Positions 1-36,500 of a stretch of DNA of 39,334 nucleotides are shown here, piece after piece. Under the pieces are notes generated by a model that saw only the letters and a list, made by a program, of their open reading frames with translations, had not been told where the DNA came from and searched no databases. The stretch spans positions 1 through 39,334 of the IMG/VR virus record IMGVR_UViG_3300004369_000574, one strand, 5' to 3'. Made by a program: the position numbers and the translations under genes. The stretch is from a virus. Position 1 is the stretch's first letter, and the number at the start of each line of letters is the position of its first letter.

Positions 1-1167
1 TCCTTTTAGTGCGCCGGGAACACCAAATATAATAAACGGGTGCTTGTGCAATAAAGGCTTAAACGATTTTTCTGTAAGTGTACATTCGTTTGCTGTAAAA
101 TTAGTTTCAGTAACAATACTTACTAACGTTTGTTTGTAGTATTCAGAAGTATAACCGAAATCCTCACACATCTTATTAATATCTGTTTCTCCGTCAATGT
201 CTAAAGGCAAACGATTATTAAATTTAATTCCGGTTAAGGCAGTAAACTGATAGTTTGGATCATGTGATCCATATGGCATTATATATTCGCTGTTATTATC
301 TTGCAAAAAATTGGTTACTTTGCTCATAAAAGTTACTGTGTTTCTCTCATCGTCTATCTTGTTAAAACTAACCAATGATCGATCTACTAAATTTAAATGT
401 TCTAGTAATAATCCTAGATAAATTCTATGCTGTCTAAATCTACGATTCCAAGATAAGAACAGTTTTGGAGGAATCACTTCTGTATCGTATTCAGGTTCTA
501 CTGCAGGTTTACCATCGTGGTCTCCATAATGAAGATAGGAGTTAAATATTTCTCTGGAAGAAGCATAGGGAATAACTGTCATTCTATGGTATTTGTCTTT
601 AGGTACGTTTCGTTTTTCTGCCCATTGATCATACAATTGTTGTGCGTTTACAGCGCCGGTTAAATAAATAATTTTGTACATGGGCAAAAAGTATTGTCCA
701 TGAAAATAAGAATACATTGCATCTAATTCTGAGTCTGCCATAAATGCTTCAACAGAATGATCTAATAGTATATACCCATTACCAATTCTTGTCAAGTGTA
801 TTAAAAAGTTTGGCATATGTGAAAATTCTAATATACCTGAATTTTGTATAAAGTAAGATTCAAAAGGTACTCGCCATGCTAATGCAAAAGGATATAAAAA
901 CGGCCGCTTATCATCGTCCGTAATATATTGTGCTGGCACAACTTCATATTTGTCTTTTGCTTTGCGAAATATTTTATTTTCAAGGTCATCTGTCCAAAAA
1001 TTTCTGGACTCCATGTGTCCACATGCACCTTCTGCAACAGATGTCATAGTTAATATATTAGGTAACTCTGTATTCCAAATAGGAGCTTTAGGACCATGCC
1101 ATGAATACACAACTTTTACTTTGTCATCAGAACTATCTGATATGACTGATCGGAATTTTTCGTTCAT
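1..1167 (-). CDS. Uncharacterised protein with C-terminal TEKSFKP motif, cut by window edge
   Basis: The reading frame opens at an ATG at 1167 and stays open to base 1, giving 389 residues with the C-terminus missing. It starts 35 bases inside the end of the upstream radical SAM gene, so the two are probably translationally coupled. There is no signal peptide or membrane segment. Two stretches look family-specific: LFLSWNRRFRQHRIYLG (about residues 229-245) and, at the very end, LTEKSFKPLLHKHPFIIFG followed by VPGALKG. From memory, this pair occurs in uncharacterised proteins of marine phages and of bacterial surface-sugar clusters, where the TEK-F-KP segment resembles the C-terminal part of some glycosyltransferases. 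That comparison is unverified. The neighbourhood (three glycosyltransferase-like genes, five radical SAM genes) fits an enzyme acting on a surface molecule. The coding call is firm; the function is a weak inference. Confidence 0.85.
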   Translation of the reverse strand, partial: MNEKFRSVISDSSDDKVKVVYSWHGPKAPIWNTELPNILTMTSVAEGACGHMESRNFWTDDLENKIFRKAKDKYEVVPAQYITDDDKRPFLYPFALAWRVPFESYFIQNSGILEFSHMPNFLIHLTRIGNGYILLDHSVEAFMADSELDAMYSYFHGQYFLPMYKIIYLTGAVNAQQLYDQWAEKRNVPKDKYHRMTVIPYASSREIFNSYLHYGDHDGKPAVEPEYDTEVIPPKLFLSWNRRFRQHRIYLGLLLEHLNLVDRSLVSFNKIDDERNTVTFMSKVTNFLQDNNSEYIMPYGSHDPNYQFTALTGIKFNNRLPLDIDGETDINKMCEDFGYTSEYYKQTLVSIVTETNFTANECTLTEKSFKPLLHKHPFIIFGVPGALKG

Positions 1168-2146
1168 TTTTTATTTTCTCACCTGTCCAAAATTTTGGAA
1201 TAATAATATCTGTGCCACACATGCACATCTCTTTGTAGCACGTAACTTGTTTGGGTCCAACGTTCTTTATATCTTCAAGTATGTGGCCAACGTCTCCGCC
1301 AACACCACAACTTGCTAAACTCATTTGTCCTACTGGATTGATAAAAATGCAATCACCGACGTTACACTTCCATCCACTAAAAAAGTTTTGACTATTTACT
1401 ATGATATCATTTGCATTACAAACCTGTTCTGTGCCGTCAGCATAACGATTATAAGAAACTGTCATTTCAGTACGTTTGTTTGGCTTTGGTACTGACTGAT
1501 GTGATTCTATGTTGTGTTTTTCAATAAATTTTACTTTTTCAGAGTCTTGGTATTGCCATGGTCCAGTAACATGATTTAATTCGTCATAAAGAGGAGTCCA
1601 TTCTAAAAAATAATTAGGCATAATTGATTTTAGGTAATTACCAAATTCAACACACTCCCAAAATCTTTCTTCATGTAATAGTATTTTTGTACTTAGGTAG
1701 TTTACATTTTCACACAACCATAAAGAGTTTTCTTCATAACGCTCTTTATTAGCATGTTCTACGTGAAAACTTGCTACGATATCATCAAACAAATATGCAT
1801 GTTTCTTCCACCATGCGAGCGGTCTACTTAAATTAGTATTAACTGCTAATGTTGCTTGTGGAAGATTTTCATACAAGTATTCGCAAATAGGAATAAAATT
1901 TCGCCAGGCTGTTGGCTCTCCGCCAGAGAAAAAGAACTTGAAGTTTTTGTATCCTGCTTTTTGATAACGGTTAACTATTGTAGACAAGTTTTTTAAGTAA
2001 ATGTCTAAGTTACCATTATTAGGATTTTCACCTGCCCAGTTTCCTGGGTTACAATAACTACAACTAAAGTTGCAGAAATTGTTTACTTGCCATGTTATTG
2101 CTAAGTATGGCTCAGGTGCAAATACTTCTCTTAACTCGCGGCCCAC
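1133..2146 (-). CDS. Radical SAM enzyme with SPASM-like C-terminal cysteine cluster
   Basis: 337 residues. A canonical radical SAM [4Fe-4S] motif CNFSCSYC has cysteines at 25, 29 and 32, and the SAM-contacting SGGEP motif is at 74-78. The C-terminal third has seven cysteines at about 243, 261, 266, 280, 303, 308 and 310, ending CYKEMCMCGTDI. This layout matches a SPASM-type auxiliary iron-sulphur domain, as found in enzymes that modify peptides or proteins (anaerobic sulfatase maturases, RiPP maturases). Unlike the other four radical SAM proteins here, it has no N-terminal twitch extension. The start is a GTG at 2146, 16 bases inside the end of the preceding gene, with a GGAAG Shine-Dalgarno-like sequence just upstream; no better start is visible before the first cysteine. 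Cytoplasmic. The substrate cannot be told from sequence. Membership of the superfamily is certain; SPASM is likely. Confidence 0.95.
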   Translation of the reverse strand: MGRELREVFAPEPYLAITWQVNNFCNFSCSYCNPGNWAGENPNNGNLDIYLKNLSTIVNRYQKAGYKNFKFFFSGGEPTAWRNFIPICEYLYENLPQATLAVNTNLSRPLAWWKKHAYLFDDIVASFHVEHANKERYEENSLWLCENVNYLSTKILLHEERFWECVEFGNYLKSIMPNYFLEWTPLYDELNHVTGPWQYQDSEKVKFIEKHNIESHQSVPKPNKRTEMTVSYNRYADGTEQVCNANDIIVNSQNFFSGWKCNVGDCIFINPVGQMSLASCGVGGDVGHILEDIKNVGPKQVTCYKEMCMCGTDIIIPKFWTGEKIKNERKIPISHIR

Positions 2147-3411
2147 TCGTATACTTCCTTAATTTCTGGTACCAAGTCTTCAAATTTTTCGTCTCTAAAT
2201 TCGTCTAACATGTCGTTGAATTCTTTGAATTCTAAAATACCACCTTTGTTTTCATCACCAACTGTTAAGTTATAGATGATCATTTTAAAGCCATTGTATA
2301 TATCTACGTTATCTTTGTGACGTTCTTGGTATACACGATAAAGTTCTGCTAGTCTACGTTTAACGTGTGACGGCAAAATCATTACATTAGCATACCAAGG
2401 GTTTGTTGCTAAGTTGAAACGAGGTGCTGAGTGTTTTACATCAATAAAATCGTTATCAACCATATAATCCCAGAAGTCAGGAAAGTCAAAGATGTTCCAA
2501 ATGGATATCGTGGGAGTAATTTGAAACTGAGCATGTGGCACTTGCTCTTTTACCTCTTTGATATTCCTGACGATTTTTTCCCAATCTGTTCCGGATCTGA
2601 TACACTCTGCCACTTTTCCGTGTGCATCTAAACTAGCCCAGATTTTTAGTTGGGGAAACTTTTTCCAATACCCAATCAAGTCAACATTCTTTTTATAACT
2701 TAATGTTGAAAAGTTTGTAGTATAGGTTAATTCTACTTGATCTGTGAGTCCATTATCGACCCAGTAATCTAAACATTCATAATGTTCAGGTGTGATAATA
2801 ATTTCGCCACCTGCAAAATAAACTTCTGTGACATCACTTAAGTAAGGTTTTAATTTAGTTAAAAATCTTTGGTCATCATTGTTGTTAATAACAATTTTGC
2901 CGTTGTTTGCTGGGAAGTATTCATTAAACACTTCTTCACCTTTTTGCTCCATAAACTCTTGTGACCACAGTGAAGAACATGAGGGTCCGCATGATCTACA
3001 TTTCATGTTACACATATTAGAAAATCTAATATCCATATACTTCATTTCAAATTCTTTTAAAGAGCCATCATCGTTAGTAGTATTTGCGATGTAGTCTACG
3101 TAGTCGAGGCCTCTGCGTTTGTTGTGAGACTGACGCATAGTCCACTCCCCCATCAATTCTAAGTCGTAGCAACGCTTACAGGCGTCTACAGGCTCATCTT
3201 TCATCATAGCACTGCGTAACTCATTGTATTTTTCAGAGTTCATCATCTGAATAATAGATTCGTCTTCTCTTATTTCTCCCATTGGAAGATCCGAGTCTGC
3301 TACACAGCAAGGCAAGACTCGTTTATCTGGCCAAGCATGAAAATGCACCCAGGGCAAAACACAAAAGTGTTTCCCGTTTTCTACTAAATTTTTAACTACA
3401 ATTTTTTCCAT
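2131..3411 (-). CDS. Twitch-domain radical SAM protein, copy 4
   Basis: 426 residues. The N-terminal half-SPASM (twitch) region carries C17 in FCVLPWVHFHAW, C35-C36, and the pair C78/C81 (CKRC). The radical SAM core follows with CNMKCRSC (C134, C138, C141) inside the family-typical MDIRFSNMCNMKC. This is the N-terminal-twitch radical SAM type found in many marine phage genomes. The SAM-binding motif reads FAGGEIII at about 199-206, with Ile204 where the other copies have Pro of GGEP; it may still bind SAM, but the change is unique within this cluster. The ATG overlaps the stop of the beta-barrel gene as TAATGG, indicating reinitiation. The substrate is unknown. It is clearly paralogous to the genes at 4063-5307 and 5307-6605, but more diverged from them than they are from each other. 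Confidence 0.95.
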   Translation of the reverse strand: MEKIVVKNLVENGKHFCVLPWVHFHAWPDKRVLPCCVADSDLPMGEIREDESIIQMMNSEKYNELRSAMMKDEPVDACKRCYDLELMGEWTMRQSHNKRRGLDYVDYIANTTNDDGSLKEFEMKYMDIRFSNMCNMKCRSCGPSCSSLWSQEFMEQKGEEVFNEYFPANNGKIVINNNDDQRFLTKLKPYLSDVTEVYFAGGEIIITPEHYECLDYWVDNGLTDQVELTYTTNFSTLSYKKNVDLIGYWKKFPQLKIWASLDAHGKVAECIRSGTDWEKIVRNIKEVKEQVPHAQFQITPTISIWNIFDFPDFWDYMVDNDFIDVKHSAPRFNLATNPWYANVMILPSHVKRRLAELYRVYQERHKDNVDIYNGFKMIIYNLTVGDENKGGILEFKEFNDMLDEFRDEKFEDLVPEIKEVYEWAAS

Positions 3412-4070
3412 TAGAATCTTACTCCGAAATTTATGTTTAACACGTTGTTTTCAATTGGGTCTTTAGTGTATATGTTTGATATTCCAATTGTAAAGTTTTC
3501 TTTAATAACATAATCAAAACTAGTTTCATTTCTATAGTATTGATCACTCTTATCACCCTCTTCATATAAAAACTTGTTGATGAATCTTATGTTTGTTGTA
3601 ATGTTATAGTAAAACCAAAAACTGTTTCTGAGCATCACTTCTTTAAACTCGTTAGTTTCTAGTCGAGCAAACGAAAGTTCATTACTTGCTTTAAATTTTT
3701 CTGTACGTAACAACTTATATCCCCATCCAAAACCTATACTATACCTATCTTGCACAGGTCTTGTTTGATCATAATCATATACAAGTTGACCTAGTACATA
3801 ATGTTTGGGCATAGACTTAAACGTATAATTTGCTTTAGCGTGTGTGTTAAATTTTTGCAGTTTTTTTTCGTCCGAATCTTTATTCACATAATCTAATTCA
3901 AACACACGTTGCCATTGATCCTTTTCATTATTATAATCAATAGAGGCAGTTACAGTTCGGTCATCACTGTTTATGAATACTCCGCCAAGTTTGGCTTCTG
4001 CTTGTGCATTTGCATTAATGGACGCTATAGAAAACAAAAATGCAAATATTATGTAAAAAATCTTATTCAT
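3411..4070 (-). CDS. Outer-membrane beta-barrel protein, DUF481-like
   Basis: 219 residues. It begins with a clear Sec signal peptide: MNK, a hydrophobic core (IFYIIFAFLFSIASI), then NANAQA with probable cleavage after about residue 22. The mature part consists of alternating beta strands with charged turns and ends in phenylalanine (INFGVRF), the C-terminal signature recognised by the BAM machinery in Gram-negative outer-membrane proteins. Strand content and length fit the DUF481/YdiY family of small barrels; that family name is from pattern recognition, not a search. The ATG overlaps the stop of the preceding radical SAM gene by 8 bases (ATGAATAA), and its own stop overlaps the next start, so it is an integral cistron of the operon. 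A phage gene for an exported host-envelope barrel could alter receptors, block superinfection, aid nutrient uptake or serve as a modification target; the sequence does not decide. Confidence 0.88.
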   Translation of the reverse strand: MNKIFYIIFAFLFSIASINANAQAEAKLGGVFINSDDRTVTASIDYNNEKDQWQRVFELDYVNKDSDEKKLQKFNTHAKANYTFKSMPKHYVLGQLVYDYDQTRPVQDRYSIGFGWGYKLLRTEKFKASNELSFARLETNEFKEVMLRNSFWFYYNITTNIRFINKFLYEEGDKSDQYYRNETSFDYVIKENFTIGISNIYTKDPIENNVLNINFGVRF

Positions 4071-5307
4071 TTAAGTCCCTTAATTTGTTTAACTCTGGAA
4101 ACACTTTCCAAAAGTCTTCGTCTCTTATTCTATCTATTGATTTTGTGTGCATAAGCATAGTGTCTTTAACATCTTTCCATGTGTCACTTTCTGCCGCAAA
4201 GTTTACAGCATCAATAACTAGTCTTGGTATACATGTTTTGTCATCTTTATTTACATCTGCCCAACGCAATGCTTTTTCTGCGGCTTCTACTTTTAATTCT
4301 TTTGGTAGACTTTTAGCACTGTAATAATCCGGATGTACCGCAAGATACAAACTGTGATACCAGTCTTCTGTTCTAACTATGTTTTTGTCTTTTAAGTACT
4401 GATAAAATTCACCAATCATTGGGTAGTTAAACAAAGAAAACACTGTGTTCATTTGAAATGACACATAATCTAAATCTCTAAAGGTTAGTAAGTTGCTTTC
4501 TACTTTGCCCCAATCTGTTCCTTTACGTAACCACTCAGCACGTTCCCCAAAGTGATCAATAGAACAACTGAGTTCTATTTTATCAAAGTGTTTCCACAAC
4601 TCTAGGATATCATGTTTCTTATATTTTATATTACTTGCGTTAGTGTTGTAACGCAAAATGGGTTTTTTGCCTCGTCTAATAAATTCTTCTAGCATCACAT
4701 AGTGTTCTTCGGTGATCAGTGGCTCGCCACCAGCAAAATAACATAACTCTATGTTGTCAATCTGTTCGATAACTTCTTCTAATACTGTGCCTGTACCATC
4801 GTCAGCATGAATTATAATCGGGTGCTTGTCATCAAAGTTTTCACGCATTTCTTGCGCCCATTGAGAACTAAACTCTGCACCGCATGTTCTGCATTTAAAG
4901 TTGCAGATGTTAGAGAATCTAATGTCAAAGTAGTGCATCCTAAAATCATGTACGTGCCCGTCGTCTTCAGTGTTAGGAACTAATTCATCAAAGTGCTTAC
5001 CAAAGTGTTCTTTAGAATAATTTCTAAAACTATGCGGGCCTGCTTCTTCGTGTTTATAGCAAAATTTACAAATGTCGTTTTTACGTTCATTAAGCATATC
5101 CAAACGTAACTCTTTCATTTTATCAGAATTAAATGCTTCTTTTAAACTAATTTCTTTAGTGTTTCCAAACGGCGTAGTATAATCATTTGAACAGCAAGGA
5201 TAGATATCACCTTTGGGTGTCACGTTTAAGTGTAGCCAAGGAAACATACAAAATGTTTTGCTTTCGTTTAATAAAAAGTCTTTATCGATTGCGGGTATTC
5301 TTTCCAT
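4063..5307 (-). CDS. Twitch-domain radical SAM protein, copy 3
   Basis: 414 residues. The N-terminal twitch region has C20 (TFCMFPWLHLNVTPKG), C38-C39 and C80/C83 (CKFC). The core motif CNFKCRTC has C135, C139 and C142 within YFDIRFSNICNFKC, and the SAM motif CYFAGGEP ends near residue 196. Downstream, the conserved LRYNTNASN and SIDHFGERAEWLRKGTDW blocks match the other copies. The C-terminal 100 residues lack a second cysteine cluster, so the auxiliary cluster, if any, is supplied by the N-terminal twitch. It starts by a TAATGG stop-start overlap with the upstream paralogue. Its closest relative in the window is the gene at 5307-6605; the shared blocks and the near-identical junction sequences in front of each show that they arose by tandem duplication. 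The substrate is unknown. Confidence 0.96.
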   Translation of the reverse strand: MERIPAIDKDFLLNESKTFCMFPWLHLNVTPKGDIYPCCSNDYTTPFGNTKEISLKEAFNSDKMKELRLDMLNERKNDICKFCYKHEEAGPHSFRNYSKEHFGKHFDELVPNTEDDGHVHDFRMHYFDIRFSNICNFKCRTCGAEFSSQWAQEMRENFDDKHPIIIHADDGTGTVLEEVIEQIDNIELCYFAGGEPLITEEHYVMLEEFIRRGKKPILRYNTNASNIKYKKHDILELWKHFDKIELSCSIDHFGERAEWLRKGTDWGKVESNLLTFRDLDYVSFQMNTVFSLFNYPMIGEFYQYLKDKNIVRTEDWYHSLYLAVHPDYYSAKSLPKELKVEAAEKALRWADVNKDDKTCIPRLVIDAVNFAAESDTWKDVKDTMLMHTKSIDRIRDEDFWKVFPELNKLRDLNE

Positions 5308-5321
5308 TATGGTCTCATTGA
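5304..5321 (-). repeat. Gene-junction repeat, copy B (stop-start between radical SAM copies 2 and 3)
   Basis: This 18-base junction matches 6602-6619 at 16 of 18 positions. Both encode the final Met-Arg of the upstream protein, its TAA stop and the overlapping ATG plus G of the next gene. The match lies outside the strongly conserved protein blocks and supports tandem duplication. Confidence 0.75.
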
Positions 5322-6605
5322 TGCTGGTATTTTATATAACATCGCAAGTTCAGGAAACGTTTCGGTAAAGTCTTCTTCTCTGATTGTGTCAATACGATGC
5401 AATTCTTCTTTAAACAATTGCTTTTGTTCGTCCCAAGTATTTTTAGATGTTACCCAACCAATGGCTTGTTCTATTTGTAGTATTTGTTCTTCTCTGAATT
5501 TCAAATCTTTCATGTATTGGATTGTCAATTCAAGTTGTTGTACTACTTGTGCTTTGTAATCTTCTGGTAAGATATGTACTGCTACATGTTCAGGACTACT
5601 CATATTATATAATGTCCATACAGGACTTTTTGGAGTGTAATAATGATTATCAATCATGTACTTGTAAAAATGTGATATAGTTAATGAATTAAATACACTC
5701 AATACAGTGTTAACTTGAAACACTACGTTTTTTGCTTTAATTAATTTCTTTAGGTTGGCTTCAACTTCGCTCCATTTTGTTCCATGTCTAACATATTCTG
5801 CTTTTGGACCATAATGATCTATTGATGCATAGATTTGTATCGGCTTTTCAAAATGTTGCCATAATTTAAATATGTCACGCTTCTTATATTTCAAGTTAGA
5901 AATATTAGTATTGTACCTAAGTTCGATATCAGTTTTCTTAACTCTAATCATTTCATCTAGCATTAGATACATTTCATCAGTAATTAATGGTTCACCACCT
6001 GCAAAGTATGCAATCTCCATGTCAGGTACACACTCTAATACTTCTTTTACAAAGTCTTTTCTGTTACCCTTAGGTAACTTTTCTGCATATAATGGGAAAC
6101 CACATTGTTCTTTGCTTTTTAAATCTTCTTGTTCCCATAGTGTAGAGAAAGCAGGACCACACGTTCTACATTTAAAATTGCAGATATTAGAAAATCTAAT
6201 ATCAAAGTATTTCATTTTAAAGTTTTTAATAGCGCCTGTTTTAAGATCAGTATTATCTAACACATCGACAAAATCCTTTTTCCAAACTTTATTCGATTGA
6301 GTTCTAAAACTAGGAACTCCTTGTTCATCGTGTTTGTGACAGTTAGCACACTCAGGATTTTTTGTGCCTTTGAGCATATCCAATCTTAACTGTTTCATCT
6401 TGTCTGAATTAACAATTTCTGCTAAACTATCCCTATTAGAATTACCAACGCCCACATTATCAGAACATGATTTACCGATACAGCATGGCGCAGCCTGACC
6501 TGTTGGAGTCGTGTGTATAGATACCCAAGGTATCATACAAAATGTTTCACTTTCATCAAGTAAAAGTCTGTATAAAAATTGTTCTGCTTTGTTTTTAGTA
6601 GCCAT
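5307..6605 (-). CDS. Twitch-domain radical SAM protein, copy 2
   Basis: 432 residues from the preferred ATG at 6605. A longer frame from a GTG at 6644 is possible, but the ATG at 6605 overlaps the upstream stop as TAATGG, exactly like the next gene, and the first family motif begins only about 20 residues later. The twitch region has C23 (TFCMIPWVSIHTTPTG), C41-C42 and C86/C89 (CANC), plus an extra C47. The core motif CNFKCRTC has C142, C146 and C149 within YFDIRFSNICNFKC, followed by AYFAGGEP, LRYNTNISNLKYKK and a SIDHYGPKAEYVRHGTKW block that corresponds position by position to the same block in the next gene. The C-terminus ends ASMRP, matching NPMRQ at the end of the upstream gene. Cytoplasmic; substrate unknown. 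Confidence 0.95.
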   Translation of the reverse strand: MATKNKAEQFLYRLLLDESETFCMIPWVSIHTTPTGQAAPCCIGKSCSDNVGVGNSNRDSLAEIVNSDKMKQLRLDMLKGTKNPECANCHKHDEQGVPSFRTQSNKVWKKDFVDVLDNTDLKTGAIKNFKMKYFDIRFSNICNFKCRTCGPAFSTLWEQEDLKSKEQCGFPLYAEKLPKGNRKDFVKEVLECVPDMEIAYFAGGEPLITDEMYLMLDEMIRVKKTDIELRYNTNISNLKYKKRDIFKLWQHFEKPIQIYASIDHYGPKAEYVRHGTKWSEVEANLKKLIKAKNVVFQVNTVLSVFNSLTISHFYKYMIDNHYYTPKSPVWTLYNMSSPEHVAVHILPEDYKAQVVQQLELTIQYMKDLKFREEQILQIEQAIGWVTSKNTWDEQKQLFKEELHRIDTIREEDFTETFPELAMLYKIPASMRP

Positions 6606-6619
6606 TATTGTCTCATTGG
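6602..6619 (-). repeat. Gene-junction repeat, copy A (stop-start between radical SAM copies 1 and 2)
   Basis: Minus strand reads CCAATGAGACAATAATGG; the copy at 5304-5321 reads TCAATGAGACCATAATGG. This is the partner of copy B and also supports placing the start of copy 2 at 6605, since both genes then begin in the same TAATGG context. Confidence 0.75.
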
Positions 6620-8011
6620 ATTTGTTAAATTGACTTGTTGGCACAATCTATAAAAATCTAGCATCTCAGGATAAACAGTTAACAAATCTGTATCTCTACG
6701 ATCATCTAATTCGTTAAACCAATTATAAAAATCTCGTCTACCTTCAATTAATCTTTCTTCTGTATAATGTGTTTCTGCCATATAGTCAACTACACGTTTG
6801 AATTTTTCATACTCAATCGTAGTAAATGCATCTGGTCTAGTGTCATCTATATTGTCTTTGATAAACTGTAAGGACTCATGCATGTAAGGCATGTATTCTT
6901 CTTTAGGTAAAATATTCATATCGTATTGCAGTGGTTCTTTTAGATATGGTGTATCAAATCTGACTCTATGCTTGTCTTCTGTTTTCCATTCGTACCAACC
7001 ATATTGCTTACGCCATTCCAAAAACTTTTCTAACAGTTGTTTGAATGATGTTACTGCTAAAATGTTAAATGTAACCATAAAAGTAATAGGAGAATCAGTA
7101 CGTGTAAGGTACGTATGAAAATTCTTTTCCCACAACTCTAAATCTAATCCAGTTCTGATATATTCTGCACGTTCACCCCAACAATCTAAACTTGTAAACA
7201 GTTTAAAACTTTCTAGTTTTTTGTCATCGCACAAATTTTTTACTGAATCTGATAGACGTTCTACTAACGCAGTCTTTGTGCCTAAATTAGAATTGATATT
7301 TAACTCTAACCATGGCATCGGATCTTCATCAATCTGTTTTAACAAGCGCCATGTAGATACGTGCATTGTAGGTTCGCCGCCTGTCACTCGTAAAATGTTT
7401 AATGTCTTACGCATTTCAGGCCACCATTCCCAGAACGCATCGACATATGGATTTTCTTCTTCACGTTCAAACAGTGTCATCCAATCAATATCATTTCTGT
7501 GATTTTTTACTGATTCTACGGGACCAAATTGTTTAATTTCACTGTGGTAACTTGATGAGTATTTAGGATGACAATAACCGCACTTAAAATTACATTCATT
7601 ACCAAAGTTAATTTCAATATATTCTGGATTAATGTTTTGTTCGTAACTTCCCTTCGCACATTGCTCAAATCTTTCTTCAGTAAAAATAGAACCGTTTCTA
7701 ATATGTCTGTCAGAAATATAATCTTTTCCTAATGCTTCTACGTTCCAGCAGTATTGACATCCTTCAGGCTTTTCGCCTTCTAGCATTTGTTTACGTTCCA
7801 TTTTCTTTTCCCAAGTGTTGTGTAATGCACTTGGGTTTTCTTTTAATTCATGCATTGGAATCTTGTGCGGCCTAGGGTGATAACAAGAGTGTGTTTCACC
7901 TGTTTGCAAATACATTGTTACGTGATGCCACTTAGCCAGACAGAAGGTAGGAGACGATTCGTTTTCTACTCTGATTTGGATTGTTTTAATTCTGTCTGTT
8001 TCTACTGACAT
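6605..8011 (-). CDS. Twitch-domain radical SAM protein, copy 1 (divergent)
   Basis: 468 residues, the longest and most diverged of the four twitch-type proteins. Candidate twitch cysteines are C24 (TFCLAKWHHVTMYLQTG), C43 (HSCYHPRPH) and C85/C88 (CQYC). The paired CC of the other copies is replaced by a single Cys followed by Tyr-His, which may change how the auxiliary cluster is ligated. The core motif CNFKCGYC has C140, C144 and C147 inside EINFGNECNFKC, and the SAM motif is RVTGGEPTMH. The block SLDCWGERAEYIRTGLDL corresponds to the SIDHFG-ERAEWLRKG block of the paralogues. The start codon overlaps the stop of the glycosyltransferase-like gene (TAATG), which couples the sugar-enzyme part of the operon to the radical SAM part. 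The substrate is unknown. Confidence 0.95.
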   Translation of the reverse strand: MSVETDRIKTIQIRVENESSPTFCLAKWHHVTMYLQTGETHSCYHPRPHKIPMHELKENPSALHNTWEKKMERKQMLEGEKPEGCQYCWNVEALGKDYISDRHIRNGSIFTEERFEQCAKGSYEQNINPEYIEINFGNECNFKCGYCHPKYSSSYHSEIKQFGPVESVKNHRNDIDWMTLFEREEENPYVDAFWEWWPEMRKTLNILRVTGGEPTMHVSTWRLLKQIDEDPMPWLELNINSNLGTKTALVERLSDSVKNLCDDKKLESFKLFTSLDCWGERAEYIRTGLDLELWEKNFHTYLTRTDSPITFMVTFNILAVTSFKQLLEKFLEWRKQYGWYEWKTEDKHRVRFDTPYLKEPLQYDMNILPKEEYMPYMHESLQFIKDNIDDTRPDAFTTIEYEKFKRVVDYMAETHYTEERLIEGRRDFYNWFNELDDRRDTDLLTVYPEMLDFYRLCQQVNLTNPMRQ

Positions 8012-8961
8012 TACCAGCCCTCTATTTCTCTAATAACTTCCATTTCTGTTACTAGCGGTCCTTTGTTATATCTGTCTGCTTTATAGTGTCTTTTAAAGAA
8101 CGAACTTTGTTCTGGTGTAAGAATACACATAGGTAGACCTAATTTATTATTTAATGCTTCACCTAATATCTCTGCTTCGACATAAGGATCTTTATTTTTG
8201 TGTTCTTCCCACATTGCAGGATAATTTTCAAACCACATAACGTTAAGGTGATCCCATTCAGTAAGCATAGTCATGTGTGTTCCTAGTCTTGCGCCATAGA
8301 TAGCCCAAATACCATTGTCAACATCATCACCTACATTTTGCCAAATAGTTAAGTTATCTAAGTTACGTGTAGCAACTCGTTGTTTAAATTCATCTACGGT
8401 TGCTCTAGCGCCCTTGTCGAGCACCATTTTTACACCCTCACGGAATCCTGCTCGCCATGCTTGAAAGGGTGTGTAGTTGGGATATGTTGTTGAGTAGCAA
8501 TCGTACATAGCCCAGTATAAACTATCTGCACTATCCATACAAAAATCTACTTGCGTATGTGTGCTACCATCGGTGTGTTCATGTGTAGTCATTTGGTCTA
8601 CGTATGTTTTTGTCCATGAACTCATACCACCATTACCATAACGTAGACCATTAATATTGTTAATTGCTTTCCATCTAAACTGTGCTAATTTATATCTAGG
8701 ATCTTTATCTGTAAAATCTAACTGAATATTAAAAAATTCTTCGTCAGGCATATTGTCACCATCAATAAGAATAAATCTTTCCGTTTCACTGGCCTCACCT
8801 GCGGCTTTGTGAGCCGCATCAGAACCAAGAACACCGTCAACACGTTTTGCCCAAGGCACCATGTTTTTAATTTGTAACCAAAATTCTTCTTTCTGTGGTT
8901 CATCATAACTAAGATAGATACAATCTAAATCTGCTACGTCAATAATGTTATCATAACTCAT
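8011..8961 (-). CDS. Glycosyltransferase-like protein with DGDN motif
   Basis: 316 residues. The N-terminal half looks like a GT-A nucleotide-sugar fold: a first strand (DLDCIYLSYDEP), the stretch WAKRVDGVLGSDAAHKAA, then RFILIDGDNMPDEEFF with Asp67-Gly-Asp69, a DXD-type metal site as in family-2-like glycosyltransferases. The later part is rich in aromatics and has no transmembrane segment, so the protein is probably cytosolic. Proteins with this opening are, as I recall, common and mostly unnamed in T4-like marine phages. The start overlaps the end of the preceding gene by 11 bases, and the stop overlaps the start of the first radical SAM gene. A likely role is sugar transfer to a phage or host surface component, by inference only; a catalytically inactive fold cannot be excluded. 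Confidence 0.85.
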   Translation of the reverse strand: MSYDNIIDVADLDCIYLSYDEPQKEEFWLQIKNMVPWAKRVDGVLGSDAAHKAAGEASETERFILIDGDNMPDEEFFNIQLDFTDKDPRYKLAQFRWKAINNINGLRYGNGGMSSWTKTYVDQMTTHEHTDGSTHTQVDFCMDSADSLYWAMYDCYSTTYPNYTPFQAWRAGFREGVKMVLDKGARATVDEFKQRVATRNLDNLTIWQNVGDDVDNGIWAIYGARLGTHMTMLTEWDHLNVMWFENYPAMWEEHKNKDPYVEAEILGEALNNKLGLPMCILTPEQSSFFKRHYKADRYNKGPLVTEMEVIREIEGW

Positions 8962-9325
8962 ATGTTTCTAACTTCCAATATTGTGTTTTAACCTTTGTCT
9001 TTTCACTTGCTATTATACTTATGTCTTCAAAGCAAGTCAATTGATGCCCGTCATTATGTTTGATGTATTTCTGTGATACTGTGCCCGATCTAACTTTTGA
9101 TATTTTACCATCCACCACTTTTACATCAGGTCTGGCTTCAGCATACTCAAGTTGGCTGATGACAATGTAGTTTCCCTGTTCTTCTTTAGAACAAGTATAG
9201 AAATCTACACTGCCATCTTCTTTATAATACAATCTAAATTCAGGTGGTTCAATCTTGGGTGCTTCCCAAAAAACAATGTACTCCTCGTTCTCAGTCGGTC
9301 TGGTATTTTCTTGTTCATTGCTCAT
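8951..9325 (-). CDS. Small hypothetical protein, acidic N-terminus
   Basis: 124 residues. I chose the ATG at 9325 because a perfect AGGAGG Shine-Dalgarno sequence lies 6 bases upstream. A TTG at 9352 would add nine residues and place that Shine-Dalgarno inside the gene. The opening is short, polar and disordered-looking (MSNEQENTRPTENEEY), followed by a compact region with PEFRLYYKEDGSVDFYTC, NYIVISQLEYAEARPDV and KVVDGKISKV, suggesting a small beta-rich fold. Two cysteines, no signal peptide, no membrane segment. It overlaps the end of the upstream glycosyltransferase-like gene by 11 bases and the start of the next one by 11. I do not recognise a characterised family; I recall similar short proteins near tail genes of marine T4-like phages. 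Its strong ribosome-binding site suggests a higher expression level than its neighbours. Confidence 0.82.
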   Translation of the reverse strand: MSNEQENTRPTENEEYIVFWEAPKIEPPEFRLYYKEDGSVDFYTCSKEEQGNYIVISQLEYAEARPDVKVVDGKISKVRSGTVSQKYIKHNDGHQLTCFEDISIIASEKTKVKTQYWKLETYEL

Positions 9326-10103
9326 TGAAGGCCTCCTGAATATCATCAGCAAAAGACTTGATATGATAATGGAAAGGGTACTGTTGAGGTACCGTATTCA
9401 CTCTAAGAGTATGGGGTAATATCTCATAGACTAAAGTACAAGTCCAATCCTCTGATGGCATTGTATTAATAAACTGCTTCATGTGTATCATAGACATTTC
9501 TTTGAATTGCGGTAGTGTCGTTTGTTCTACTCCAATAACGTGTGATGCAATCGCATAAACAAAATCTGTTGTTGCAGGTTCATTTGGATTACATATAAAG
9601 TTAGTTTTAATGTTTTCCCAATCTTCAAAGATGTGTCTAACCGTAGCAAAAAATTCTTCTGCTAATTTTGATTTTTTAAAATACGTAATAGCATTGTACG
9701 TATCAGGTAATTGGTTGTCTGTAACAAAACTTCTGTATGCTTTAATAGTTGAAACATCCTGATGATAATTTCTGATAGTAGTGGAAACAACAACGTCTCT
9801 ATGTTGTAGAATATCCCACCAGTAATCTATCGATGTAGGTATGTATAAGTCTGCTTCTAATTTAATTGTATATTCATATGGGCTTGCTTCGTATACTTGC
9901 CAGTCATTAAAATATCCTTTTAGGTCGCCGTAAGGTAGTTCTATGACGTTATCCCATACAGTAGATGTTGTTTCGTTGTTACTGATCAAAGATACTTTTG
10001 CATCAGGCATGCAACGAACTAAACTTTCAGCACATAACTCTGCCATACGTACATAGTTGACTTGGTCAGTGTTTTGTGCTATAATTACAAATCCCTTATT
10101 CAT
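9315..10103 (-). CDS. Glycosyltransferase-like protein, paralogue B
   Basis: 262 residues with a GT-A-like layout: an N-terminal strand GFVIIAQNTDQVNYVRMA, a second strand-loop AKVSLISNNE, and YEASPYEYTIKLEADLYIP with Glu83-Ala-Asp85 in the place of a DXD site. It is clearly related to the preceding gene: NTD-x3-YV-x-MA near the start and A/DxSPY-x-x-TI-x-L before the acid motif match in order and spacing. Its metal motif is EAD rather than DVD, so it may differ in metal or donor use, or be inactive. The start overlaps the previous stop by four bases (ATGA). No signal peptide or membrane anchor. Sugar transfer is inferred from the fold-like pattern and the neighbours; donor and acceptor are unknown. 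Confidence 0.85.
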   Translation of the reverse strand: MNKGFVIIAQNTDQVNYVRMAELCAESLVRCMPDAKVSLISNNETTSTVWDNVIELPYGDLKGYFNDWQVYEASPYEYTIKLEADLYIPTSIDYWWDILQHRDVVVSTTIRNYHQDVSTIKAYRSFVTDNQLPDTYNAITYFKKSKLAEEFFATVRHIFEDWENIKTNFICNPNEPATTDFVYAIASHVIGVEQTTLPQFKEMSMIHMKQFINTMPSEDWTCTLVYEILPHTLRVNTVPQQYPFHYHIKSFADDIQEAFNEQ

Positions 10104-10972
10104 TTGTTCTCCATTATATTAACATAATGTTCTTTGTTAATAACATGAAAATCCATGTCTTTTAATTTAATATATTCTTTTCTGATTTTGCCACGCTTCC
10201 AGTTATCGTAGATAACAGTAAATTCAGTATTATACAATAGTGTGCCGGGAGGAGCATCTGGTATTTGCTGATCAATAAAATCAGCATGTACGCCTGTATT
10301 TTTTCCAACGTGTACTAAGTTCCATGGTATAAAATCAGTTGGATCATCTAAATGTCCGTTTACTATTTTAACTGCTAGTGTAAGTGCATAATCGTTTCTG
10401 TATGTGCCAGCAACAAAACTATGTAGATTAGCATAGTGTTTGTAATTTTCTTGCACCATACGCAATGTGTCAAATATCTGCTTTGCTCGTTCAGACTTTT
10501 TAAACATGACAACTGTTGCCCACAAACTATTAAAACTATATGAACTAAGCATTTCTTGTCCTGCTTCTTCGTTCATAAGAAATTGTGTTCTGTTGTGGCA
10601 ACAAAACGTATCAGACAAATCAAATGTTTTTAATAGTTTATCAGAATTGACTACGTAATCTACATCTAATAGAATAGTTTCATCGTAAGGACTCAAGTCA
10701 TATGCCTGATATCTACCTTTATTTTTCCAAACTTCGTGGTCTTTGATATTGCTATCATCTGCTTCTACAAGAATAACTTGATCAAAATACTGTTCTAGTT
10801 TTGAATCAATCTTGTCAGTAATTATTGAGGTAGGTAAATCTAAAAAGTGTTGTACACGGTTTGCACAATACACGGCCATGGAAACATAATCCCACTTATC
10901 CGTGTTAAATGCAAATACTAAAACACCTCGATTTAGCGTTTTGTTTCTAGTTCTTGCCATTCTTTGCACCAT
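10100..10972 (-). CDS. Glycosyltransferase-like protein, paralogue A
   Basis: 290 residues, with an Arg/Lys-rich first 15 residues and then GVLVFAFNTDKWDYVSMA, an apparent nucleotide-binding first strand. The block YDLSPYDETILLDVDYVVN carries Asp103-Val-Asp105, a DXD motif of the kind that binds the metal-nucleotide-sugar in GT-A glycosyltransferases (GT8-like arrangement). The later MFKKSERAKQIFDTL and IPWNLVHVGKN segments also suit such enzymes. It is paralogous to the next gene. The ATG at 10972 lies 40 bases inside the upstream gene; a second ATG at 10960 (residue 5) is equally plausible, since neither has a strong Shine-Dalgarno. Cytosolic by sequence. Its likely partners are the other sugar-enzyme and radical SAM genes of the same operon. 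Confidence 0.86.
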   Translation of the reverse strand: MVQRMARTRNKTLNRGVLVFAFNTDKWDYVSMAVYCANRVQHFLDLPTSIITDKIDSKLEQYFDQVILVEADDSNIKDHEVWKNKGRYQAYDLSPYDETILLDVDYVVNSDKLLKTFDLSDTFCCHNRTQFLMNEEAGQEMLSSYSFNSLWATVVMFKKSERAKQIFDTLRMVQENYKHYANLHSFVAGTYRNDYALTLAVKIVNGHLDDPTDFIPWNLVHVGKNTGVHADFIDQQIPDAPPGTLLYNTEFTVIYDNWKRGKIRKEYIKLKDMDFHVINKEHYVNIMENK

Positions 10973-11238
10973 TCTGACATTACAGTTTCATATGTGTTAG
11001 TAAGAGTAGATAGAAGGTCTTGACGATGTACTTCAACTGGGTTATCAAACGTGTCGATAAGTACGACCTTCTCTGAGGTGAAAGAATTTAGAAATCCTAT
11101 TGTTTCTGTATCGGCTTTCCAAAGTCCGCCTTGTTCAGCAACCAATAGTTTTGCTTGAAACTTTTCTTTTAAGTATGCTTTGGCTGAGTTGTGTGCAAAT
11201 CTTGCTTTGCTCTTAGAAATTAATTTTTCAGTATCCAT
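10933..11238 (-). CDS. Small conserved-type protein, first gene of the accessory operon
   Basis: 101 residues, highly charged and Lys-rich at the N-terminus (EKLISKSKARFAHNSAKAYLKEKFQAKLL), then GGLWKADTETIGFL and KVVLIDTFDNPVEVHRQDLL, ending in a predicted helix rich in Trp and Glu. It looks like a small alpha/beta cytosolic protein. From memory, similar proteins of about 100 residues occur beside tail and sugar-enzyme genes in T4-like marine phages; no function is known to me. It heads the overlapping gene string that runs to the window edge, and its ATG and AGAGAG ribosome-binding region lie in the 3' arm of a long hairpin (11238-11293). Its translation may therefore depend on where the transcript begins. 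Confidence 0.85.
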   Translation of the reverse strand: MDTEKLISKSKARFAHNSAKAYLKEKFQAKLLVAEQGGLWKADTETIGFLNSFTSEKVVLIDTFDNPVEVHRQDLLSTLTNTYETVMSEWCKEWQELETKR

Positions 11239-11293
11239 AGTCTCTCTTTAATCTATTACTCCCTAGAGTATTTAGAAGGATTTAGAGAGACTA
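11238..11293 (-). promoter_or_regulatory. Nested hairpin covering the ribosome-binding site at 11238
   Basis: On the plus strand TAGTCTCTCT at 11238-11247 is a perfect 10-base inverted repeat of AGAGAGACTA at 11284-11293. AATC at 11250-11253 pairs with GATT at 11279-11282, and TACTC at 11257-11261 pairs with GAGTA at 11266-11270 around a CCTA loop. In the minus-strand RNA, the 3' arm contains the AGAGAG Shine-Dalgarno-like sequence and the A of the start codon, so a transcript reading through from the structural genes would hide the start. No T-run follows the stem, which argues against an intrinsic terminator. The repeat is seen directly; the regulatory role is inferred from T4 genes e and soc, where read-through RNA is silenced the same way. 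Confidence 0.7.
11269..11276 (-). promoter_or_regulatory. Late-promoter-like octamer TCTAAATA inside the hairpin
   Basis: The minus strand reads TCTAAATA, one base from the T4 late promoter TATAAATA and from the NATAAATA form at other junctions in this window. Initiation about six bases downstream (near 11263) would omit the 5' arm of the hairpin and free the ribosome-binding site of the gene at 11238. It is the only late-like element I see ahead of the eleven-gene accessory string. The mismatch at the second base makes promoter function uncertain. Confidence 0.4.
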
Positions 11294-14313: not shown

Positions 14314-17300
14314 TTACGTAATATCCGTATGTAGAAACTGTGCAGGGTCAGTTTCACTAATTTGTAATGGATCTCCTTCTACAGTATTAAAATTGTAAGA
14401 GTTCCATGTTTGATCATAATCTTCTTCTGGCATTAAATTGCTACTTAATAAACTAAACACTTCTGTATAGACTGGTATATAGTTTATTTGAGGTGTTCCG
14501 TTTGCTCCTCTCTGTAATCCTGTTACAGAATTAGTTTCAAAATCAACACTGTCGAACTTAATTTGTTCACCTGCGATATACAACGTATTACCAACAAGAG
14601 TCGTAATTTTCAAACTATCACCTGCATTAATATTTGCATTGCCTGTAATTTTTAGAACAGGACTCATCGATTCAACAACTACTTCAAAACTGTTTTGGTC
14701 TAAAGTTACACCCAGTGTAGTATTTACAACCGTAACACCAGTCAATAAGTTTTTGTCTGCATAAAGACCGATACTATAGATATTATCTACCGGGGTAGGC
14801 GCAATTTCATTTTGTATTAATGTATCTGTAACTCTGCTAAGATCGTAAACATAAACACTTGTACTTAAATCGTATATAGGCTGTGTTAACCAAGTACGTG
14901 ATTGTGTATTAGCACGATAAATTGATTGCTCACCTACATAATTTACTGAATTTAAATAAATTTCTTCGTTTGGCGTTGAGTGAGGAATCATTGAAGTTAC
15001 AATAACTAGATCACCGGGTTCGATTTCTGTAAGAATGCTAATTTCATTGTCTTCTCTCATTCTTAGTTTGCTTGCAGGTACACGCAGTCCGTTCACTGTT
15101 ACCCAAAGTCTTTCAACATTATTTTGTTCCCACTGAGTTACGTTCATTAATCCAGTGTCTGCACTCAATGCAACTTCAACTGTAGCATCACGTGTTAGAC
15201 CAATTGTGAAGTTAGTATTGTTAATAATTTGCTTGACATAATATGTTACACCTTGTTCGATGCCACCTAATAAAGTTGCGCCTGCTTCTTGACCTTGTTG
15301 AGTAAAGATAATAGGATTATTAACTACTAAATCAGCAGTAGACTCTACTGTAATCCAGTTAGTATTAGGCGTAGATGTTGCTGTAGCAGTTGTCGTAAGA
15401 ATAAAGAACGTTCCTTGTCTCCAAGTATAGCCGTTTTCGACCCATGTAGTAATACCAGTTACTGGATAGTTAGTACCAGTAACTGAAGCAGTCCAAGGTT
15501 CATCGTAAATATCAAATCTGTACTGGTCGATAACTTTAACATAATAGTTGTTACCGTTTAGTTCTTCTGCTCCAACACAGCCATCAATTGATGCTAATTG
15601 ATTATCTCCATAAGCATGTGGATATGCTGTTGTAATACGTGTAGTGTCGTTTCCGCCAGAAGTTGCAGGCATGTTTCCGCTAGCCGTGCTTGTTAAATTA
15701 ATTTGGGCGCCTGTTTGATCTTTTAATGTTGCTTCAGTTAAACTGATAACACTTTCAATAAAGTAAACTGTACCTGCTTCTAATCCACCAAAAGGTATTC
15801 CCTGCAAAATTAAAGTCTGATCTGGAATAAAGCCGGTTGTGCTTTGGAACGTAACGACATTAGTAGTTACGTTTGTACCTAATGCTCTTGTTCTTGCTAG
15901 TGGCTCGTTAATATCAGTTTCAATGTTTGCAATAGGTGCAACAGTAATAGCATTTGAAGTACCTACCATTGTACCTGTGTCTGTTGTTACTGTTACTGGG
16001 GTGCCACCTGGTGTTGTAGAAATTGTAAAGGTTGTTGAGTCTAAAATTTCTAATATATAATATGTAAAGCCTTCACTAATTCCACCTATAGTAGGAGCAA
16101 TAAACACAATTGGTTCGTCTACAATTAGTGCAGAAGTATCTGCACAAGTTAAGTAGTTTAATAATTCATCATATGCAACTACAGTAGGTGTATCTTGGTC
16201 ATAAGTTTCAATATTAGGAGTATCTTCGTCAAATGTACCTTCTTGGTGTGTAGTTGATGTCACTGCAACAGTTGTAAAGACACCGCCTGATAAACCTGCT
16301 ATACCATACTGTGATGTTAGATACTGTCTATCTGTACTGTTATATGTTAGTACAGAAATCTTTGCTCCGTTTGCTGGTGGAGACAAGAACAAAATAGTAT
16401 TTGACCCTGGATTAATTTCGTATGCTGACGCTGTTTGACGTAAACCGTTGATTTCTACTATTGCATTATATGGATTTTCATCTCCATTAAAGTTTGGTAA
16501 TTCAAACGATGCTTGTGAGCCATTACCAACAAACTCAGCAATTTCTGGTAGGGTGTAACCATATTGAGTTCCACCTGTTTCACCAAAGAACGAGTAAACA
16601 AAGTAATCATCTTCGTTGTTGTATGAGCCAGGAGCCGCTAAAATAAGTTTTGCTTGTATACCGTTAGGTTGTATTCCAATTGCATAATCATTTGTAACAT
16701 ATGTTGAAATACCTGATGCGTTAGACAATGTAACTACTGGGCCGCCTAATGTTTCAGAAATAGTAAATTCATTACCGTCTACGATAGACTTGATATAGTA
16801 GTATTGGTTAGGAGTAATATCACTACCAAACATATCTGCGGCAAAGATAATCCTAGAACCTACAATCAAGCCAGCAGTTGTACCAGTTGTGATAGCATTG
16901 TTACTTGCTTTTGTTCTACTAATAGTATTTGTTTTACCCAAGACTAATCGTTGACCGTTGTGATTCACAACTGGATCTGTCCAAACAGTGCCTGTGCCTG
17001 TTTGAATATTACAAATCATTGATCCAGTAGCATCTGTTAGCGATTTAACTGGTCCCGCTAAACCTGTCGATGTGCTGTAAGTTTCAGATACAGTAATAGA
17101 ATTAGTAGCAGTAGAAATTGACTTCACATAGTATGTTGTTTCGTCAGCAATGCCACCAAACACAACACCTTGGAATGTGATTGGATCGTTCTGAACAAAA
17201 TCACTTACGTCTACGAAAGTAATTGTATCACCAGTTGAACTGGTTTCAATTGCTTCTACTTCAATAGAGTGTGACCCAGTTCTGATTAAACCTGAACCTT

Positions 17301-33592: not shown

Positions 33593-36500
33593 TTAAGACT
33601 TTAGTGTTTCTGGCGTTAAGGCTGCCACAACAACAATGTCATTAGTAGTTGCCGCATTAGCAAATATTTCGTACGGTTTGCATTTGATTTCATACAAGTC
33701 CCCAAATTGTGATTCTGGATCGTTTGGAACTAACACTACTGAACTTAAATACTCACCTAATTCTTCATGTAAATATGCACTCAATTCAGAGAAAAAGAAC
33801 GTGTCTCCAAAATTCCAATAATTAATATCAAAATATGAGTCCATAGCCGTTAACACTGCACTTCTGATCTCACTATTACTTGCATTGGTGTTTGTTGCTT
33901 TTACTACTTTTATAGTTGCTTGTAAAGAAGGATCTGCCTTAGCACCAAACAAAGGTTTAAACGTGACACTATTTAATATCACTGAATCTGATAACATTTT
34001 ATAATCTTGTATCTGTGGATATTCTGCACTCAATTGACTAAGAGTTGGCTCTGTTGGTTTTTTAACAGTATTCGTAGTGTCTTTGATCCAATTTTGGTAG
34101 TCTGTGTAATAAGCATTAGTTACCAAATACATATCAATAATATTAGTAGTAGCAGGATCAATGCGTGTTGTGTTATTTGCATTGTGTCGATATTGGAACG
34201 ATAAGCCTTGTCTTCCTGGCTTAACTGAATAGTCTGTTTGTTCTACTAACACATAAAAAGGTGTTACTACAGTAGGATCTTGTACTGTTTGATAGAATTT
34301 ATTTTCTGTATACGCATAGAATAATTCTCCTTCAGGGTATTCATATTTTACAACTTCGATTTGACTCTTTGTTGCAAAATTATAAACAATGTCTGAACTA
34401 GGAACAATAATTTCTCTTGTCAAATTGACAGGGTCAGTTATGGTTCTAAAGAATACATACACACCTATATTAGCACCGTTATTAACATAACCTGTGATGT
34501 CGTTAAAGAAATCAGGATCTAAAATTAACTGCCGATTGTTTACATCTGTTGCCGCAACTTCAACTTGGAAATCATTTACATAACCGTCGCTTTCAACAGT
34601 TTGTCCTAAAATATTAACTTTAGTGTCTGCACCTAATGCATTGGTGGAACCAAATTGTGGATTAATACCTAATACACTAATAAAATCCTGTATAATTTTT
34701 CCAGTAAACGGATCGTATACCAGTTCATTTGGACTAAACGTAAAACGAATGTCGTCTGCACTACCAAAATAATAGGTAAGTGACTTGTATGTTACAGTGT
34801 ATCTGTTATTACCTAAACTTGTAAACTTGACAAAATAGTTTGGATCAGTAAATGTACTAATCGACCAGCGTTCTTGGTTTATTAATTTAGAATTATTGAA
34901 TACTAAAGTAAAATCTTGTTGTAATTCTATTTTTAAAATACATTCTTGTATAATCTGAGGTGATAACGAATTGTCAAATACTGGAATAATTTGTGACAGT
35001 ATTACGCCGTCAGGTACATAACCATTTAATGTAACTGGGCCTTGTCCGTTTGCGAATGTTCCTTGACCGTTGTTATTACCATCGTCAACAATGTTTAATA
35101 CAGTTGACCAAATATATGTAGAGTCGCCGGGTCCTGGCACTCCTACTTTTAATCTATTTTCGCTAGTAAAATAATACCCAGTTGGTGCAGTGAATTTTAA
35201 TATTGAACCAGCAGTAACATATTTTGCATTTGTTGTTGTAAATGTGCCTAGGGGCGCCGGATTTTCTACTTCTCCGGTAAGTGAATATAAGTAACCGGTT
35301 TCATGTGTAGAATCAACCGAACTTACTTTCCAATATAATGCAGGATCACCTGTGCCTGGATATGCGTATCTAGGGTAATTTTGAATATAATATTGTGTCG
35401 CTCTATTCAGTGCTAAAACAGAGGCTAAATCGTCTGTAAAAAACTGAATGATGTCACTTGTGTTTTGTACTTGTAATGTGAGGAATCCGTCAGTATCAGA
35501 TTGATATAGTGCTCCGTCAGCGCCAAAAGAATTTGTACTAGAATATTTTCCTGTTGGATCTAATAAATCTAAATTTTTAGAAACACCAATAGAACTTCTG
35601 TTTACTGCTTTAGATTTAATAATAGAATTATACAGCGTATAAGGGAAGTTAGTGTAATCTTCTCCGTTTACCATTCTATTTTGAGTATAGTATCTTGTTG
35701 GGGCACGTTGCTTAATAGAATCTAAAGACTCTCTAGCCTGTGCATTAGACACTGTAAGAGGTAACGTCAATGAAACAGTTAATGTTTCTCGTCTACCTTT
35801 TCTGCTAATGTATGTCATTGTAACCGAAATACCGTTCATTTCAGAAGGATCAATTTGATATGTCATTGCATTACTTGATCTTACATATGCTCTAAAATTA
35901 CCAACAGGTATTTTTGAAAATACACCATCGCCAAATACATAAGTTACTTGGTCATTAGTACGTGAATTTACAGAAAATATATTTTTGTTTGATGATTCTG
36001 TTTGCAAGTATGCATCCGAATAAACATTATCAACTTGTTTCCACAACGTCCTAGTAGTGTCCGAGTTTAATTGATATAACCAAGTATCAGTTTGATTGAT
36101 GCCAGGAATATCAATGTCTTGTGTTTCGTTTGCTATAGCCTGCTGAAATGTAAAATCGTTAGTTTGCAAAGTGCCTTGTTTAAAATAAAACATAAAGCCT
36201 GTGTTTGGACTTCCATATCCTAAACCATCGTTTCTTAGTAAAACGTTAAACATACCATTAGGGCTAGGTGGTATTTCGTATACATAATCTTCGTTTATTG
36301 ATGTTGCACTTACTAATTCAAAGTTCATTGATTGTGCATCGACCACTGACGTAAAGGGCACGATTGGCAAACTTCCTTCAGGAATACGCATTGTATATTC
36401 TGATGTTTGTACACCCATTATGTCTGATGAATTACCGGGTTTGCCTATTTTTTGTGAATCAATTAAAGTAGCATTTAAAATAGTATTAAATTGATCTACC

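Follow-up and report, generated by a model that had tools for sequence, protein, structure and literature searches.

What would a T4-like phage do with five radical S-adenosylmethionine (SAM) enzymes encoded side by side? The question is raised by IMG/VR virus record IMGVR_UViG_3300004369_000574, a genome fragment whose entire length of 39,334 bases was analysed and is called the window below. A preliminary description, made from the sequence only, had noticed these genes beside sugar-transferase-like genes and had suggested a phage-encoded modification pathway. The enzyme classes and such a pathway are supported. The five genes are best read, with a probability of about 0.6, as the core of a late-expressed T4-like phage glycan pathway, in which sugars would be altered by radical chemistry. 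They belong to a compact same-strand unit comprising three glycosyltransferase-like genes (g8, g10, and g11), four radical SAM genes with an N-terminal twitch domain (tw2-tw5), and one with a C-terminal twitch (rS1). Neighboring genes are named g01 and g8-g12, and all of these genes lie on the minus strand.

The Radical SAM Array

The open reading frames (ORFs) for the five radical SAM proteins occupy positions 1133-8011 on the minus strand, with one further gene among them:

1133..2146, minus strand: rS1, 337 amino acids (aa), radical SAM with a C-terminal twitch-like cluster; Pfam Radical_SAM 31.4 bits (cut-off 29.5)
2131..3411, minus strand: tw2, N-terminal twitch radical SAM; N_Twi_rSAM 349.6 bits, Pfam SPASM
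3411..4070, minus strand: DUF481 outer-membrane beta-barrel with an apparent signal peptide; PF04338, E 1.7e-13
4063..5307, minus strand: tw3, N-terminal twitch radical SAM; N_Twi_rSAM 358 bits, Pfam SPASM and Radical_SAM
5307..6644, minus strand: tw4, N-terminal twitch radical SAM, variable member; N_Twi_rSAM 361.3 bits, Pfam SPASM and Radical_SAM
6605..8011, minus strand: tw5, N-terminal twitch radical SAM; N_Twi_rSAM 310.4 bits

The hidden Markov model search proposed in the preliminary description matched radical SAM families in all five proteins, and the CxxxCxxC cores and four N-terminal twitch domains described there are borne out by NCBIfam and Pfam scores and by invariant cysteines. 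The NCBIfam model N_Twi_rSAM (NF033640) has a cut-off of 170 bits, which tw2-tw5 exceed by 140-190 bits, with nearly the whole model covered (E 1.9e-92 to 6.9e-108), whereas rS1 stays below it at 30.8 bits. In three of the four twitch enzymes (tw2, tw3, and tw4), the N-terminal domain is also matched by Pfam SPASM. Among the 38-71 homologues of each paralogue, the cluster cysteines, i.e., N-terminal FC, C(C), and CxxC and core CxxxCxxC, are essentially invariant. For instance, C24, C43, C85, and C88 of tw5, together with core C140, C144, and C147, are found in 68/68 homologues.

The fifth protein had been credited with a SPASM-like C-terminal cluster. A conserved cluster is indeed present in rS1 (C261, C280, C303, C308, and C310, essentially invariant), in a protein with a mean column identity of 61% across 22 homologues. 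Nevertheless, Pfam SPASM (PF13186) is unmatched, and there are five C-terminal cysteines versus the seven of a full SPASM domain, so that the cluster looks like a twitch rather than a full SPASM. Because the cluster cysteines are essentially invariant in homologues, all five proteins look like working enzymes. Conserved cysteines outside the clusters are C248 of tw3 (58/61), C457 of tw5 (68/68), and C145 of rS1 (70/71), with none in tw4. C248 was not retained as the hydrogen donor of an epimerase, its equivalence to Cys249 of NeoN being conjectural.

The five genes had also been described as nearly contiguous. They do share one stretch and one strand, but the DUF481 gene interrupts them. This gene, which splits the array, is present only in the nearest relatives (about 45% identity), and it is an insertion, not a core part of the unit. 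A PHROGs search with its protein returned no match; receptor masking or superinfection exclusion is a possible role for the barrel.

The AlphaFold2 model of tw3, the sole member modelled, has a predicted local distance difference test score (pLDDT) of 92 and matches solved radical SAM TIM barrels. Together with the CxxxCxxC core and a GGE-type motif, this fold agrees with membership of the radical SAM superfamily. Its nearest solved folds include anSME, SuiB, and CteB beside the nucleotide enzymes viperin, BlsE, and MoaA; the fold alone, thus, does not decide the substrate, as protein or peptide modifiers are mixed with nucleotide enzymes. Action on nucleotides, in the manner of viperin or QueE, could serve counter-defence or DNA modification. 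It would agree with the weak similarity of rS1 (34.1 bits) and tw3 (27 bits) to the viperin profile and with a QueE-like PHROG match for tw5 (E 0.006). However, the viperin cut-off (NF038283) is 180 bits, viperin and QueE have no auxiliary twitch domains, and the unit showed no genes for nucleotide modification. With scores so far below cut-off, a viperin or QueE role was rejected, and we regard nucleotide substrates in general as highly improbable.

Conservation of the Array in Phages

A search with rS1 alone yielded 80 phage loci; after the addition of later loci and merging at 95% rS1 identity, 66 lineages were retained. The gene order in these relatives is g11, g10, g9, g8, tw5, tw4 (in zero to two copies), tw3, tw2, and rS1, usually followed by g01. 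Twitch enzymes stand upstream of rS1 in 62/62 lineages having enough upstream sequence (three genes in 21 lineages, four in 33, five in 7, and one in 1). As they are present throughout, usually three to five in a fixed order, the radical SAM set is not a chance cluster. Among the same 62 lineages, g8 is found in 60, g10 in 45, and g11 in 44, and, of the 59 lineages in which 5 kb or more of downstream sequence is available, 58 have a g01 homologue after rS1. In lineage L083, tw2 and rS1 are fused into a single ORF of 749 aa. Genes that come and go independently had been named beforehand as the outcome that would speak against a shared pathway; the survey found order and content kept in dozens of lineages.

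Arrays of N_Twi genes also occur without rS1 in the wider phage group, and 42/44 of these have glycosyltransferase-like neighbors of the g8, g10, g11, or g01 families, as counted with profiles built from the cluster itself. Among isolated phages, a relative of tw4 is found only in Vibrio phages K566 and K567, at 24% identity; the set of radical SAM and GT8 genes in these two is smaller. In a tentative, midpoint-rooted tree, the clades of tw3 and tw4 contain phage sequences only, whereas tw5 and tw2 belong to large groups in which cellular sequences occur as well; recent tandem duplication was, therefore, discarded as the sole origin of the twitch genes. Some phage records of 156-347 kb hold up to 18-21 N_Twi_rSAM matches each (L090, L147, and L148, i.e., G013, G015, and G016). 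The cluster is also carried, at 84% identity for tw3, by a contig binned as Rhodobacteraceae (L179, NZVE01000006.1), which is probably a misbinned phage contig.

The junctions between these genes bear on a second explanation, close to the earlier lean to peptide or protein substrates. The enzymes could act on a protein or peptide of the virion or the host, in the manner of anSME or of ribosomally synthesized and post-translationally modified peptide (RiPP) pathways, the sugar genes being mere neighbors in a variable host-recognition region. Most characterised SPASM and twitch enzymes do act on peptides or proteins, the best Foldseek matches of tw3 include three such modifiers, and the radical SAM genes come after tail structural genes. 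A RiPP-type system should, however, have a precursor gene, and none is conserved at the junctions, which lowers this explanation. Gaps are shorter than 60 bp at 70/78 (g8 to twitch), 209/234 (twitch to twitch), and 83/87 (twitch to rS1) junctions, and a scan of the junctions for small ORFs and gaps revealed only unrelated, non-conserved inserts. An adjacent precursor was, thus, rejected, as the ORFs overlap or abut and the inserts at the remaining junctions are not conserved. PqqD and other RiPP recognition element (RRE) families are absent from the Pfam scans of the five proteins, no RRE-dedicated search having been made. The sugar context described below is, in addition, strong and specific, in both lineage counts and a density control. 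A precursor encoded at a distance is conceivable, and larger virion proteins could serve as substrates; on the whole, modification of peptides or proteins appears unlikely, and the earlier lean towards it is not supported.

Sugar Genes Around the Array

The neighboring genes in the window are the following:

1..1167, minus strand: g01, truncated at the window edge and conserved downstream of rS1, perhaps a glycosyltransferase
8011..8961, minus strand: g8, GT-A-like sugar-nucleotide-binding protein by predicted fold, tightly linked to the array
8951..9352, minus strand: g9, 133 aa, weakly conserved (from the ORF list, the gene order of relatives, and Pfam and PHROGs scans)
9315..10103, minus strand: g10, GT8-like glycosyltransferase; glycogenin (GT8) is hit by the family profile at a best E of 1.8e-5
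10100..10972, minus strand: g11, GT-A-like glycosyltransferase candidate, by motif only (invariant DxD, D103/D105)
10933..11238, minus strand: g12, 101 aa, first gene of the unit, conserved in relatives; no Pfam or PHROGs match

The proposed link to sugar-transferase-like genes, thus, holds, through the glycogenin match of g10 and the GT-A-like fold of g8. The AlphaFold2 model of g8 has a pLDDT of 88, and nearly all of its best Foldseek matches are GT-A glycosyltransferases or sugar nucleotidylyltransferases, with low TM-scores. The first of them, likewise at a low TM-score, is a glycosyltransferase that takes part in glycosylating the major capsid protein of PBCV-1. Upstream of tw5 in L082, L093, and L078, a g8-like domain lies within proteins of 670-810 aa; those of L082 and L093, the two scanned, had no Pfam match.

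The left edge of the window falls inside g01. In relatives that extend past this edge, the same-strand unit runs on into sugar genes. After g01 comes a homologue of GDP-mannose-3,5-epimerase (best PDB match 2c59, E 8e-92 over 319 residues), in whose alignment the catalytic Cys and Lys appear conserved. By Pfam, NCBIfam, and PDB comparison, the extension also holds genes for a nucleotide-sugar dehydrogenase, for a DegT aminotransferase, and for two radical SAM proteins of the B12-binding type. SGNH proteins are also present, a label read from the sequence; one of them matched DUF6071 only. In the 59 lineages with sufficient downstream sequence, genes of the epimerase-like, nucleotide-sugar dehydrogenase, or DegT type are found in 49, B12-radical SAM genes in 49, and SGNH genes in 50.

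These genes are concentrated at the cluster. On eight contigs, 14 nucleotide-sugar genes were counted in 168 kb at clusters (8.3 per 100 kb) and, as a control, one in 320 kb of the far parts of the same contigs (0.3 per 100 kb). The resulting excess of about 28-fold was obtained with profiles seeded from cluster loci, which favors the near set somewhat, the families being standard Pfam ones. Vibrio phage K566 has a hypothetical gene flanked by two radical SAM genes that scores above the Glyco_transf_8 cut-off, and a second GT8 gene is nearby.

Tail Setting and Late-Promoter Motif

The T4-like assignment relies on T4-type baseplate wedge proteins, and the tail-region setting reported earlier is confirmed by them. 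One homologue lies at 33593-36955 (phrog_10646, E 1.4e-263) and a second one at 37009-37467; phrog_43/261 is also matched, at E about 4e-8. A giant ORF for a virion protein of 6,422 aa (14314-33582, minus strand) occupies the tail region upstream of the array; when its two ends were tested against PHROGs, the N-terminal part alone was matched.

A single promoter motif stands at the head of the unit, from g12 to g01:

11269..11275, minus strand: CTAAATA, T4-type late promoter motif, conserved before g12

It is found within 60 nt upstream of g12, 22-36 nt before the gene, in 41/42 distinct relatives, and in none of the relatives scored before g11, g10, g9, g8, tw5, tw4, tw3, tw2, rS1, or g01. 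CTAAATA is the late-promoter form described for the T4-like phage Aeh1 (PMC1524935), and NATAAATA is that described for cyanomyoviruses (PMC2984593). The structural gene g14 is preceded by ATAAATA, likewise a late-promoter form of T4-like phages, in 25/34 relatives, in most of them at a distance of 27-32 nt from its start. The classical T4 late promoter TATAAATA occurs 0 times in the whole window versus 6.3 expected, and the CTAAATA and ATAAATA forms seem to replace it there. The simplest inference is that g12, the radical SAM array, and the genes beyond would form one late transcription unit. An internal promoter before tw2 was considered and rejected, as the TAAATA seen there in 33/55 relatives is coding sequence of the tw3 C-terminus. 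In the distant relatives L016, L145, L148, and L169, TATAAT-like boxes come after a terminator-like hairpin and only a few nt ahead of the start codon of g12, so that its message may be leaderless.

The timing of expression bears on the acceptor. With the same radical chemistry, the glycan could be placed on the host envelope (O-antigen or core) during infection, so as to prevent superinfection or change receptors. This has been proposed for glycosyltransferases of pelagimyophage host-recognition clusters (PMC7029224), and it would suit the phage outer-membrane protein gene (DUF481) inside the array and the PagP gene nearby in K566. However, a late-type promoter motif fits virion proteins better, and no flippase or lipid-carrier transferase turned up, no search aimed at them having been made. 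Envelope remodelling is, thus, a tentative option, and, as a variant of the glycan pathway, it shares part of the probability given to that pathway. Glycosylation of the virion (tail fibre) is slightly preferred as the target, given the late type of the unit and its position after the tail genes.

The Proposed Glycan Pathway

In the proposed glycan pathway, nucleotide sugars would be made or altered, then transferred to an acceptor. After transfer, the radical SAM enzymes may successively abstract hydrogen atoms from sugar carbons, leading to dehydrogenation or epimerisation, for which HygY, NeoN, and BtrN, acting on aminoglycosides and aminocyclitols, would be the models. The SGNH enzymes would acylate, and the B12 enzymes would methylate.

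Several points weigh against this pathway. The reaction and the substrate are deduced from gene context, and the nucleotide-sugar genes of this phage from its relatives, as the window ends within g01. Sugar genes gather anyway in the regions for host recognition of such phages, so that adjacency to them does not prove a shared pathway. Two of the putative glycosyltransferases are unconfirmed: Pfam and PDB profile searches with g11, and Pfam and PDB searches with g01, gave no match, and their assignment to named glycosyltransferase families was, thus, rejected. Many cellular N_Twi genes (Bacteroidota) stand alone, without sugar neighbors, and the closest solved folds to tw3 include the protein or peptide modifiers anSME, SuiB, and CteB. 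Finally, the CTAAATA promoter is a predicted motif rather than a mapped start site.

A broader claim would be that a complete multi-step radical SAM assembly line decorates virions with novel sugars, outside known pathways, and that the whole N-terminal-twitch family is glycan-modifying. The line would comprise the epimerisation of GDP-sugars, the transfer of glycosyl groups, four to six successive radical reactions at sugar carbons, and cobalamin-dependent C-methylation; taken as a whole, the claim is doubtful.

Relation to Known Systems

Radical SAM genes have been described in pelagimyophages as cassettes of the host-recognition cluster (PMC7029224). These cassettes are alike in place, in a hypervariable tail region with GT8 genes, and the position of the present array after a giant virion protein agrees with that cluster, by position alone. 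In the passages of PMC7029224 devoted to them, neither the set and its order nor a nucleotide-sugar extension, late promoter, or function is resolved. The T4-like environmental genome TARA_ERS488813_N000010 holds 12 radical SAM genes, read as Fe-S metabolism (PMC5332604). It is alike in having many such genes in one T4-like phage, and the records studied here reach 18-21 twitch-family matches.

Radical SAM enzymes acting on sugars or cyclitols do exist, namely BtrN, NeoN, and HygY (cited in PMC10991966). HygY and NeoN are epimerases and BtrN is a dehydrogenase, all acting on sugar or cyclitol carbons, and HygY has been called a twitch enzyme. The twitch domain of BtrN can be aligned (E 1e-4) with the N-terminal domain of the profile for the tw genes. 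Nevertheless, these three enzymes carry the twitch at the C-terminus, unlike tw2-tw5, and the likeness is one of chemistry by analogy rather than demonstrated enzyme homology. In a plasmid block of Brachyspira hyodysenteriae (PMC4267127), a radical SAM gene is likewise set among a glycosyltransferase gene and two epimerase genes; that block is bacterial, has one radical SAM gene, and is likened by gene content, not sequence. The GDP-mannose-3,5-epimerase of PDB 2c59 is a plant enzyme, whereas the homologue in relatives is phage-encoded and lies outside the window.

The pelagimyophage cassettes, the 12-gene T4-like genome, and the N_Twi protein family are, thus, already known. Within the literature searched, three things are new: the resolution of a fixed operon, the connection of that operon to a nucleotide-sugar pathway that includes cobalamin radical SAM enzymes, and its promoter of late type. 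The N_Twi_rSAM model, of which tw2-tw5 are full-length members, assigns no substrate by its name; here, its members are arrayed in a fixed order together with rS1 and sugar genes. Radical SAM genes with an N-terminal twitch are widespread among environmental phages, in which they are highly repeated, and we know of no substrate for them. A fixed operon with a late-type promoter, in which this family is tied to genes for nucleotide sugars and glycosyltransferases, offers a concrete, testable role. If it is true, phages make glycans by radical chemistry, which would bear on host binding, receptor hiding, and defence escape and would provide a new source of sugar-modifying enzymes.

Cellular Relatives of the Array Genes

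Some cellular relatives also have sugar-related neighbors. For example, N_Twi genes lie between two glycosyltransferase family 2 (GT2) genes in Candidatus Jettenia ecosi (L209), and one stands beside a carbamoyltransferase gene in L224. A sugar role was not accepted from cellular neighbors alone, as these are mixed, and those of most Bacteroidota copies, read from the sequence, are unrelated to sugars. In a Bacteriovoracaceae metagenome-assembled genome (MAG), eight radical SAM genes of the N_Twi type lie within about 12 kb (L186:6055-18051), and other Bdellovibrionota also hold several. Cellular homologues of rS1 (377-379 bits) are found beside N_Twi genes in Bdellovibrionales and Deltaproteobacteria MAGs (L192:9977-14688 and L193), and in L193 a sugar-1-phosphate nucleotidylyltransferase-like gene is nearby.

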